DNA of 64,000 nt, taken from assembly GCA_021770095.1 (NCBI GenBank), contig JAETRQ010000003.1, positions 1 through 64,000 of the forward strand, written 5' to 3'. The notes under the pieces were generated by a model that searched no databases, was not told the DNA's origin, and saw only the letters and a program-made list of their open reading frames with translations. Numbering within the stretch: position 1 is the stretch's first letter; every line of letters starts with the position of its first letter. Both the position numbers and the translations under genes were made by a program. This stretch comes from Eubacteriaceae bacterium. GTDB taxonomy: Bacteria; Bacillota; Clostridia; Oscillospirales; Acutalibacteraceae. This document shows positions 33,963 to 62,950 of the stretch, piece after piece.

Positions 33963-33981
33963 TAATTAAGGATTGATATAT

Positions 33982-34248
33982 ATGAAATTGAAAGACGGCA
34001 TTGTTACAAACTCAATAGACGGTGAAAGTTTCGCTATTGCAACCGGTAAAGCAGCAAAGGAATTTAACGGTTTGGTTAAAAATAATCCCAGTGCGGCTTT
34101 CATTTTTGAATTGCTCAAGTGTGAACAGACAGAAGACAGCATTGTTAACGCAATGATGGAAAAATATGATGTTGACGAAGCAACTGTACGTGCAGATGTT
34201 AAAGAACTGATTGACTTATTAAAATCAAAAAAACTGATTGAGGACTAA
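33982..34248 (+). CDS. PqqD-family small protein (RiPP-recognition-element fold)
   Basis: An 88-residue winged-helix protein. The pattern GKAAKEFNGLVKNNPSAAFIFELL, ...IVNAMMEKYDVDEATVRADV and ELIDLLKSKKLIED matches PqqD proteins, which bind leader peptides of ribosomally made, modified peptides. No radical-SAM or maturase gene is adjacent; the next gene, 2 bases downstream, encodes an NTP_transf_5 protein. Start ATG 33982 with AAGGA upstream. Whether it has a peptide substrate is unknown. Confidence 0.8.
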   Translation: MKLKDGIVTNSIDGESFAIATGKAAKEFNGLVKNNPSAAFIFELLKCEQTEDSIVNAMMEKYDVDEATVRADVKELIDLLKSKKLIED

Positions 34249-34250
34249 TT

Positions 34251-35345
34251 ATGAAATATTCATCCATTGAAAGTGAATATTTGATTCAGTTGATTAAGTG
34301 CGCACTCAAGGAACAGCCGTTACCTTCTCCGCCTGAAAATATCAATTGGGATAAACTGATTAAACTGTCAAAACAGCAGCAGGTATATTCTGTCATTTCC
34401 GTTTTACTTGACAGTACTGTTTTGCCGCCTGCACAGGCAGAGGAACTGAATGCATACTCGCAGTCTGAGTTGATTCGTCTTCTTGCAATGAAAAGTGAAT
34501 TTGAACAGTTTGAAAAGGAACTTGAAGATAATCAGATTAAGTTTATGCCGTTAAAAGGCAGTGTTCTGCGTGAATATTACCCGCAGCAAAAAATGCGTCA
34601 GATGAGCGATATGGATATTCTTTATGATTATTCAAAGCGTGATACCCTTGTTAAAATTATGAAGTCGCATGGTTACAGACTGACTGCTTCGTGTGAAAAT
34701 TCGGACGACTTTTTTAAAAATCCGTTTTATACATTTGAGTGGCACAGAGAACTTTTTTTTGAAGAATCAGATTTCTGCCCGCATTTTGATTTATGGGCAA
34801 ATGCAGTTGCTGATAAAGAGAATCGTTATAAATATCATATTGAAGAGACGGAGCATTTTATTTATACAATATGCCATATGTACAAGCATTATGCGACAAA
34901 TGGCTGCGGAGTCAGATTTTTGTGTGATATATATCTTATGCTGAAAAAGTGTTGTATTCATCTTGAACAGGCATTTGATAAATTAGAAGAAATAGGAATA
35001 TCGGATTTTTCAAAAGATGCTGTCAGCCTTGCATATGCCGTTTTTGATGATAATGATGTTACGGATAAACAGCAGAAAATGCTTGATTTTATGCTGAGCA
35101 ATGGTGTGTATGGCAATATGATTGTTGATTACAGCCAGAAGCTGGATGCATTTAACGGTTCAAAATTCAAATACCTGCTTGACAGAATTTTCCCTTCAAA
35201 GAAAAAAATGAAAGCAGATTACAGAATACTTGAAAAGAAACCGTATCTGCTCCCTGCGTATTATATAATCAGACTTTGCACTAAAATGAAATATAATTCA
35301 AAGGCAGCAAAACAAGAATTAAAAGAGATTAAAAAGATAAAATAA
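34251..35345 (+). CDS. Uncharacterised nucleotidyltransferase (NTP_transf_5 family)
   Basis: A 364-residue protein. [22 protein letters not shown] then [13 protein letters not shown] near residue 122 is the acidic metal-binding pair of this nucleotidyltransferase family, with a Lys-Gly before it. HICHMYKHY-like [15 protein letters not shown] occurs later. The family is repeatedly seen beside PqqD-like proteins in peptide-modification or glycan loci; the substrate is unknown. The start is 2 bases after the PqqD-like stop, and the lepA gene follows after 16 bases. Confidence 0.82.
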
Positions 35346-49155: not shown

Positions 49156-49174
49156 TGGTATATCAATGATTATG

Positions 49175-49206
49175 GGATAACTTTCAACTGAGAGTTATCC
49201 TGTTTT
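49175..49206 (+). terminator. Rho-independent terminator after ferredoxin
   Basis: GGATAACT (49175-49182) pairs with AGTTATCC (49193-49200) around a 10-base loop, followed by TGTTTTT. Confidence 0.85.
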
Positions 49207-49232: not shown

Positions 49233-49261
49233 TTGACAAGAAGCGACAATGGTGATAAACT
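49233..49261 (+). promoter_or_regulatory. Promoter of the 34-residue peptide gene
   Basis: TTGACA at 49233-49238, a 17-base spacer, TAAACT at 49256-49261. It is 41 bases before the TTG start. Confidence 0.65.
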
Positions 49262-49301
49262 GTATAAGGTATAAAAGACTGAACGGAAAGGGGTTCTGAA
49301 T

Positions 49302-49406
49302 TTGAAGAAATATATTACTCCGCAAATGAATATTGAAGAATTCACGGTGGATGAAGTTATTACTACAAGTTATATCAGTGGAGAGAACCCGGATACAGAG
49401 TTCTAA
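49302..49406 (+). CDS. 34-residue peptide with ITTS motif, possible RiPP-like precursor or signalling peptide
   Basis: TTG 49302 (AAAGGGG at 49287-49293) to TAA 49404. The product reads MKKYITPQMNIEEFTV, then DEVITTSYISGENPDTEF. It is acidic with no membrane segment and no Cys. The arrangement of a Lys-rich start, a Pro-containing segment, Phe, Asp-x-Val-Ile-Thr-Thr-Ser and a short acidic tail resembles short peptides common in gut Clostridia, sometimes considered RiPP-like; that comparison is from memory. It has its own promoter and terminator, indicating an independently expressed gene. No modification enzyme is adjacent. Confidence 0.65.
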   Translation: MKKYITPQMNIEEFTVDEVITTSYISGENPDTEF

Positions 49407-49415
49407 AACGAATTG

Positions 49416-49444
49416 ACAGGCAGTTTTTAACTGCCTGTTTTTTT
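49416..49444 (+). terminator. Rho-independent terminator after the peptide gene
   Basis: ACAGGCAGTT pairs with AACTGCCTGT around a TTT loop, followed by TTTTTT. Confidence 0.9.
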
Positions 49445-49694: not shown

Positions 49695-49738
49695 TAATGA
49701 TAGCAATGTGTGATTGCTGTATGGAAAGGATGGTTTTT

Positions 49739-50143
49739 ATGGCACGTCCCAGAAAACACAGACGGCTTTGTTCAGTGCCGCAGGACAAAGTTTTTAACAA
49801 AGGCGAATTATCATCCTCACCAATTAATTTGACTGTTGATGAATATGAAACTGTAAGGTTGATTGATTATGTCGGTTTGACGCAAAAAGAGTGTGCCAAA
49901 CAAATGCAGGTTGCACGTTCTACTGTAACAGCAACTTATGACAGTGCAAGATACAAAATATCAGATTCAATTATTAATAACAAAACAGTAATTGTTGATG
50001 GCGGTGATTTTCAGATTTGTGAAAATTCAGACCATTGCTGCGGTAAATGCGGAAAGAATAAATGCGGCAGATGTAAGCACGGCAGTTGTGAAATGTGCAT
50101 TGGCATATTCCACGAACCCGGCAGAGAATGTTTCGCATTATGA
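49739..50143 (+). CDS. DUF134 (UPF0251) family DNA-binding protein, Cys-rich C-terminus
   Basis: A 134-residue protein that starts MARPRKHRRLCSVPQ as in the DUF134 family. The middle holds a sigma-region-4-like helix-turn-helix, LTQKECAKQMQVARSTV then TATYDSARYKI. The C-terminal 45 residues carry nine Cys (ICENSDHCCGKCGKNKCG, RCKHGSCEMC, REC), suggesting metal or Fe-S binding. I choose ATG 49739 by family alignment; upstream in-frame codons start at 49697. It lies directly upstream of pflB and downstream of a palindromic operator, so redox-responsive autoregulation is a reasonable hypothesis. Confidence 0.85.
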   Translation: MARPRKHRRLCSVPQDKVFNKGELSSSPINLTVDEYETVRLIDYVGLTQKECAKQMQVARSTVTATYDSARYKISDSIINNKTVIVDGGDFQICENSDHCCGKCGKNKCGRCKHGSCEMCIGIFHEPGRECFAL

Positions 50144-62663: not shown

Positions 62664-62918
62664 AAAATAAAGCCCCTATACATTATAAGTATAGGGGCGT
62701 AATGTTTTACGCGGTACCACCCTATTTCAGCAGTAGGTTAAACTGCCCTTTAGCATCAATCAATGCCTTTGCCTGTAACGCGGCAAAACGGCTGTTCCTA
62801 TTTATTCCTATTCAAAACAGCAACTCCGCAGAGAGCTATGCACCGTATAATATGTATCGGCTTACACCAACCGCCGACTCTCTGAAACTAAATTATAAGG
62901 TCTTTTTCTGCTTCTTAG
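62664..62918 (-). promoter_or_regulatory. T-box leader of leuA
   Basis: Read on the minus strand, a Stem I motif (GAGAGTCGGCGG, TTGGTGTAAGCC) runs from about 62880. It is followed by AGGGTGGTACCGCG, the conserved T-box, at 62723-62710, and a terminator hairpin (GCCCCTATAC at 62672-62681 pairing with GTATAGGGGC at 62689-62698) with a U-run. Uncharged tRNA pairing with the T-box bulge would favour the antiterminator. Leucine specificity is inferred from leuA; I did not assign the specifier codon. Confidence 0.9.
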
Positions 62919-62950
62919 TTTTTATGTGGGTAATATTAAATTGTAAAAAT

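Follow-up and report, generated by a model that had tools for sequence, protein, structure and literature searches.

The 34-residue peptide gene at 49302..49406 on the forward strand of the window, a 64,000-nucleotide stretch from a Eubacteriaceae bacterium, is most likely one scattered member of a large family of precursors resembling those of linear polyphosphorylated peptides (LPPs) and tied to secreted proteins. Its chemistry and function are putative. Members of the family share fixed Tyr, Pro, Phe and Ser residues, co-occur with a set of enzyme genes to which they are physically linked in some relatives, and in most cases are paired with a secreted-protein gene. The suggestion in the original prediction that the peptide could be a RiPP-like precursor is thereby supported, with a YxxP leader-like motif, co-occurring PqqD, HprK-like and SPase-like genes, and shared clusters in relatives all speaking in its favour.

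The peptide unit lies between a ferredoxin gene (PF00037, 48985-49155) and a DUF134 gene (49697-50143). On the forward strand it comprises a promoter-like site (TTGACA-17-TAAACT, 49233..49261, score 10/12) in which a TG precedes the second hexamer, a Shine-Dalgarno-like sequence (GGAAAGGGG, 49285..49293) 8 nt 5' of the TTG start, the gene itself, which encodes MKKYITPQMNIEEFTVDEVITTSYISGENPDTEF and is supported by the ORF list, homology and the family model, and a terminator-like hairpin with a T-run (49415..49439). Another terminator-like hairpin (49172..49203, forward strand) stands behind the ferredoxin gene. The hairpin scan returned three terminator-like hairpins in the scanned stretch (one hairpin being counted on both strands) against 0.3 expected. 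Promoter-like sites numbered three in the scanned stretch against a mean of 3.5 in shuffles, so the promoter originally claimed corresponds to a 10/12 site but is plausible rather than proven. With 205 ORFs of 30 aa or more overlapping the 40-60 kb interval, the peptide ORF alone would be unremarkable; it is regarded as a real gene since homologues are found in its own genome and genus. Most of the homologues inspected have an ATG as the first codon of the same M-K-x-Y, which is evidence for TTG as the start of the window gene. The compact unit of Shine-Dalgarno sequence, TTG start, 34-codon frame and terminator is confirmed, and the peptide does lack Cys and a membrane stretch, as first described.

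The window peptide matched no Pfam or NCBIfam family. Rfam at the gathering threshold gave a single match in the window, a T-box leader well away from the peptide gene at 62690-62925 on the reverse strand (129 bits); the locus itself thus holds no known RNA element. Searches of plasmid and phage collections gave no match, leaving a reading of the gene as mobile cargo unsupported.

A paralogue in the same genome is 71% identical to the window peptide (E 4.4e-9). Model A1, an alignment of 27 peptides from matches in 60 relatives, finds six copies in the genome and, at E <= 0.01, members in 51 of the 60 sampled genus genomes, with 1 to 14 in each. The search for homologous ORFs originally recommended has therefore yielded a conserved peptide family, which is unnamed and reaches up to 14 copies per genome. 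Matches of the 34-aa query inside long frames (e.g. L017, L019, L020, L021, L024, L027, L032 and L033) were judged to be due to chance and excluded. The family pattern is [Y/F]xxPx6[F/Y], usually followed by DVITTS and then by a variable acidic tail; the ITTS motif highlighted originally is present in the window peptide, but the pattern is wider and its fixed residues are Y/F, P, F/Y and S. The genus sample of 78 members, made up of the window peptide and 77 fetched places, has Pro in all 78, Tyr in 77 (Phe once), Phe or Tyr seven positions after Pro in all 78, and the conserved Ser in 77, though part of this conservation is selected because all members were found with the model. The Ser is also present in 26 of 27 peptides in other groups, which contribute 28 rows, at least two of them being one peptide twice. 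Residues after the Ser are variable and mostly acidic, the last 20 residues of genus members having a median net charge of -4.5, and six of the 78 have a Cys among the final 45 residues of their open frame.

The YxxP motif (codons of Y4-P7, 49311..49322, forward strand) suggests a PqqD-type recognition protein, its presumed binding partner by comparison with PMC13381572. The genome encodes two stand-alone proteins of this type, one of them in the window (33973..34248, forward strand; PF05402, E 4.8e-15; TbiB1, PDB 5v1u, E 8.4e-4), which may in fact begin at the ATG at 33982. Directly behind it is an LppN-like nucleotidyltransferase of the NTP_transf_5 type (34251..35345, forward strand; PF14907, E 1.7e-38). 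An HprK-like kinase gene is found on the same contig, 3.2 kb past the window end (G000:C39:67176-67883; model A2, E 6.6e-77), and a signal-peptidase-I-like protease gene on another contig (G000:C5:33468-33884; model A3, E 1e-39). The PqqD-like and peptidase genes named in the original prediction for testing are thus both encoded in the genome. Neither the kinase nor the peptidase matched Pfam at E 1e-3, and their NCBIfam scores (21 bits to ScmC and 18 bits to SipW, respectively) are far below cut-off, so their labels rest on models A2 and A3, which were built from linked clusters. The closest named relatives of the kinase, among 80 HprK-like loci kept of 579, are in metagenome-assembled genomes (MAGs): Clostridium sp. 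NALB_7961_35 (82%), Eubacterium sp. HAN015 (81%) and Candidatus Eubacterium faecigallinarum (79%).

These enzymes and the peptide occur together across the genus. PF05402 is present as a small stand-alone ORF in 51/51 peptide-positive and 0/9 peptide-negative genus genomes; its raw tally is 53/60, with 52 over cut-off, and the negatives G015 and G066 have only a weak match inside a frame of ~470-510 aa. The HprK-like kinase is found in 47/51 positive genomes (in G072 by a fragment) and 0/9 negative genomes, and the SPase-like protease in 49/51 and 0/9; the four genomes in which the former and the two in which the latter was missed are assemblies of at least 160 contigs. Fisher p values are 7e-11, 5e-8 and 4e-9 for the PqqD, HprK-like and SPase-like genes, respectively, but are uncorrected for genome relatedness and overstate independence, as the nine negatives may share one loss. 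PF14907 is non-discriminating, being present in 60/60 genus genomes, with one copy in each of the nine negatives and two to five in the others. A better control is provided by an order-wide sample of 197 genomes from 110 genera, in which PqqD was found in 32/37 peptide-positive versus 41/160 negative genomes and the HprK-like kinase in 34/37 versus 17/160. Five order genomes have a peptide match and no PqqD (G105, G152, G168, G211 and G233), and three have one and no HprK-like kinase (G132, G168 and G233); the match in G233 sits inside a 797-aa frame.

In the genome under study the enzyme set is dispersed over several loci, none of them a cluster with a precursor. Loci from other families of the order are tighter: in L053 and L150-L157 no more than ~3 kb separates the peptide gene from HprK-like and PqqD genes, with a weak peptide match (E 8e-4) at a contig edge in L156; L158 and L159 are not compact. 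L155 runs in the order large secreted protein, peptide, smaller secreted protein, HprK-like kinase, PqqD, SPase-like protease, ABC transporter and nucleotidyltransferase. Only in L155 do the further cluster parts have Pfam support, for the ABC transporter (PF00005, PF00664) and PF14907; elsewhere they were assigned by eye. An ABC exporter is seen by Pfam in L155 and by eye in L053 and L156. The same 80 named HprK-like loci (from 579) were also classified with the models. Writing A for peptide, K for kinase, B for PqqD, S for peptidase and N for nucleotidyltransferase, these comprise BKS (25), K alone (17), BK (11), ABKNS (8), BKNS (5), BKN (5), ABKS (5), KS (2), ABKN (1) and AKS (1). PqqD is beside the kinase in 60 of the 80, and a family peptide is present in 15, including Paenibacillus contaminans (A-K-B-S-N), Herbivorax and Acetivibrio alkalicellulosi; in 14 of these 15 it is upstream of the kinase on the same strand. 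Many HprK-like loci thus lack a family peptide in their vicinity.

Other loci were recovered alongside these. L241, L253, L278 and L292 are HprK-like, PqqD and peptidase sets in MAGs labelled Planctomycetia, planctomycete, Thermoguttaceae and Planctomycetales, and would be outside Bacillota if the bins are clean. L117 (G034:C4) and L118 (G064:C13) contain a second RiPP-type cluster, partly named by eye, with two 64-aa ORFs, an HprK-PqqD fusion, a radical-SAM-like ORF, a 726-727-aa ORF and a signal-peptidase-like ORF, together with an ABC transporter in L118.

Most genus members lie behind the gene of a large secreted protein. The 77 genus places fetched were mostly the best-scoring of the model A1 matches rather than a random draw; 10 could not be judged because of contig or stretch ends, leaving 67 assessable. 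To count as a partner, a protein had to be 300 aa or longer, have a signal peptide by our own simple rule and be encoded on the same strand at most 300 bp upstream. By this rule 56 of the 67 peptides have a partner, 49 of the 56 within 60 bp; the median gap is 16.5 bp and the median partner length 1074 aa. Five tandem peptide pairs (L185, L188, L219, L225 and L229) each share one upstream gene, so the 56 correspond to 51 different upstream genes. Among the other genes of the regions and window, 51/461 encode such a protein when strand and position are ignored. The 11 exceptions include some near misses and a few peptides that, like the window copy, appear to stand free. The original description of the unit as free-standing thus holds for the window copy and is atypical of the family.

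A scan of 37 of the 55 distinct upstream proteins (of at least 300 aa) identified 14 with BspA-type leucine-rich repeats and 11 with a subtilase domain, and sialidase-like, InlB-type and cohesin domains were also found. One C-terminal model matches 35 of the 55 distinct upstream C-termini, a count that is partly circular as the model was built from 29 of them. Among the 441 ORFs of the genus regions and window, this model matches only proteins encoded upstream of a peptide. Among 2027 ORFs of at least 150 aa from all fetched loci, it matches 41 proteins that are followed by a peptide and seven that are not, in a set where linked cases are favoured because the loci centre on peptides or partner genes. 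None of the seven belongs to the genus sample; they come from L158, L238, L242, L284 and L285, and behind the L242 protein stands a diverged YxxP-like ORF.

One upstream protein has an additional domain. In L219 (1775-5206, reverse strand; G031:C109), a 1144-aa signal-peptide protein directly upstream of a tandem peptide pair contains a ubiquitin domain at residues 720-791 (PF00240, E 7.8e-21) beside BspA-type repeats. A ubiquitin domain is unusual in a secreted bacterial protein.

Ten small lipoprotein-like genus ORFs (in L055, L063, L184, L185, L187, L194, L195, L198, L205 and L216) end in DGWINKWY or close variants and lie directly behind a peptide or within ~430 bp of one. Peptides in G002, G006 and G081 themselves end in DDEGWI[DN]KWY, and such a tail or a GWxGIY form is present in 14 of 2396 ORFs. 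This likeness between peptide and neighbouring lipoprotein tails (DEGWIDKWY) hints that the C-terminus may be the displayed part, in which case it would be a common display motif.

Taken with the enzyme genes, the family features suggest that the gene probably encodes the precursor of a RiPP that works like an LPP, the window copy being an orphan precursor served in trans; the modification, cleavage and export steps we infer from the published pathway. The YxxP motif in the first half of the peptide would be held by a stand-alone PqqD-type protein, either the one in the window or the one elsewhere in the genome. By LPP analogy, the HprK-like kinase would then phosphorylate the conserved Ser23 (codon 49368..49370, forward strand), the presumed phosphate acceptor, and the SPase-like protease would cut shortly before it, within or just after VITT. 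The nucleotidyltransferase at 34251-35345 may decorate the phosphate, and an ABC exporter would release the short acidic core. The claim that the peptide is itself the functional product rather than a leader is accordingly retained in part: members of the family lie behind or apart from other genes and are not attenuator leaders, but under the LPP analogy the first ~20 residues would be cut off to leave a short acidic core. A tentative extension is that in these gut clostridia an LPP-type machine serves orphan precursors genome-wide. Each precursor would be expressed together with a single large secreted protein (a subtilase, BspA-type LRR protein or sialidase-like protein), often one with the shared C-terminal domain, and after modification would serve as a tag or ligand anchoring, activating or marking that protein at the cell surface. 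This is possible, and we hold it with considerably less confidence than the precursor assignment itself.

The secreted-protein pairing could also be explained by unmodified accessory peptides that act as chaperones or ligands of the preceding proteins, with the enzyme co-occurrence reflecting shared ancestry only. The position of 56/67 peptides directly after a large signal-peptide protein gene, the partly circular match of 35/55 C-termini to one model and the restriction of that model's matches among 441 ORFs to proteins upstream of a peptide all speak for this. It is nevertheless unlikely, given that co-occurrence extends order-wide, that the peptides are linked to kinase, PqqD and peptidase genes, and that the LPP enzymes, according to PMC13381572, require the very YxxP and Ser that are fixed here. 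We consider it very unlikely that the peptide is a RiPP precursor of another class, such as one with Thr/Ser-Asp/Glu ester cross-links or of lasso type, made by enzymes that went unrecognised here. TTS followed by an acidic tail would suit such a product and lasso leaders with YxxP are described in PMC13381572, but the lasso leader peptidase family PF13471 has no match in the genome and exceeds the cut-off in only 1/60 genus genomes (three at E 1e-3), no cyclase or ATP-grasp was noticed by eye among the ORFs around linked clusters, and the genes travelling with the family are those of LPPs.

The LPP-like precursor assignment might hold for the family while the window copy is a decaying, functionless stray paralogue. 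The copy has no secreted-protein partner, unlike most relatives, starts with TTG, and has no clear orthologue in the 60 relatives, the best match outside its genome being 59% identical (E 7e-5). Against this, all fixed residues are intact and the gene has its own promoter-like site, Shine-Dalgarno sequence and terminator. Between it and the C50 copy, its closest paralogue, dN is 0.30 and dS is not computable, presumably through saturation. Similarity between the two stops at the ORF, which shows that the window gene was not freshly copied, and recent segmental duplication of the C50 locus was rejected on this basis. A stray is thus quite unlikely. Its intact fixed residues favour reading the window copy as an independently expressed precursor over a stray. 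It is free-standing, the rarer form in the family, and the nearest genes of the enzyme set are on its contig, with PqqD and the nucleotidyltransferase 15 kb upstream and the HprK-like kinase 18 kb downstream.

What is new here is the existence of dispersed LPP-like precursors, most of them behind large secreted-protein genes. A literature search of open-licence papers found no dispersed precursors behind secreted-protein genes, and the main text of PMC13381572 (supplements aside) does not mention Clostridia or ruminococci, orphan or in-trans precursors, adhesins or secreted partners. Small dispersed ORFs far from biosynthetic clusters can be precursors, and cluster-based mining would miss them.

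Three known systems invite comparison. Lasso peptides of the paeninodin and pseudomycoidin type share a PqqD-type protein, an HprK-like kinase, a nucleotidyltransferase and a Y/WxxP leader, as described in PMC7533575. The absence of a match to leader peptidase B2 (PF13471) in the genome sets the present system apart from them, and on this ground a lasso reading was rejected; the product here is presumably linear. There is a fainter resemblance to SynChlorMet, in that the L155 kinase scores 43.6 bits and the kinase of the genome under study 21 bits against ScmC (TIGR04249), and the window PqqD 13.4 bits against ScmD (TIGR04248), but these are far under the curated cut-offs of 125 (ScmC) and 100 (ScmD).

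The closest resemblance is to LPPs. As set out in the main text of PMC13381572 (2026), the Paenibacillus alginolyticus locus lppA-K-B-S-D-N encodes, in order, the precursor, an HprK-like kinase, a recognition protein, an SPase-like leader peptidase, an exporter and an NTP transferase. There, the leader is cut after Thr, core Ser3 carries several phosphates and is not exchangeable for Thr, and no effect was visible when the NTP transferase was deleted. The present family likewise has short precursors with a conserved N-terminus and a variable C-terminus; YxxP is found in 77/78 genus members (FxxP in one) and as YITP in the window peptide, and the Ser conserved in 77/78 is compatible with the phosphorylated Ser of LPPs. 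The genome encodes a stand-alone PqqD-type protein, an HprK-like kinase, an SPase-I-like peptidase and an NTP transferase, and L155 has the same gene order as the LPP locus bar one inserted secreted-protein gene. The biological role of LPPs is stated to be unknown in section 12 of the same paper; the pairing with secreted proteins, often with a shared C-terminal domain, is a strong clue to the role of these LPP relatives and makes the question testable in gut bacteria. In this genus, however, the enzyme genes are scattered, and the precursors are many per genome, dispersed and mostly behind secreted-protein genes. The published leader motif Px9Fx[T/A] (YxxPxVLxHQxIxFETxxS) is present in 0/78 genus and 0/18 other members, which instead have Px6[F/Y], as Px6F in the window peptide, usually with DVITTS; we therefore call the family LPP-like rather than LPP.
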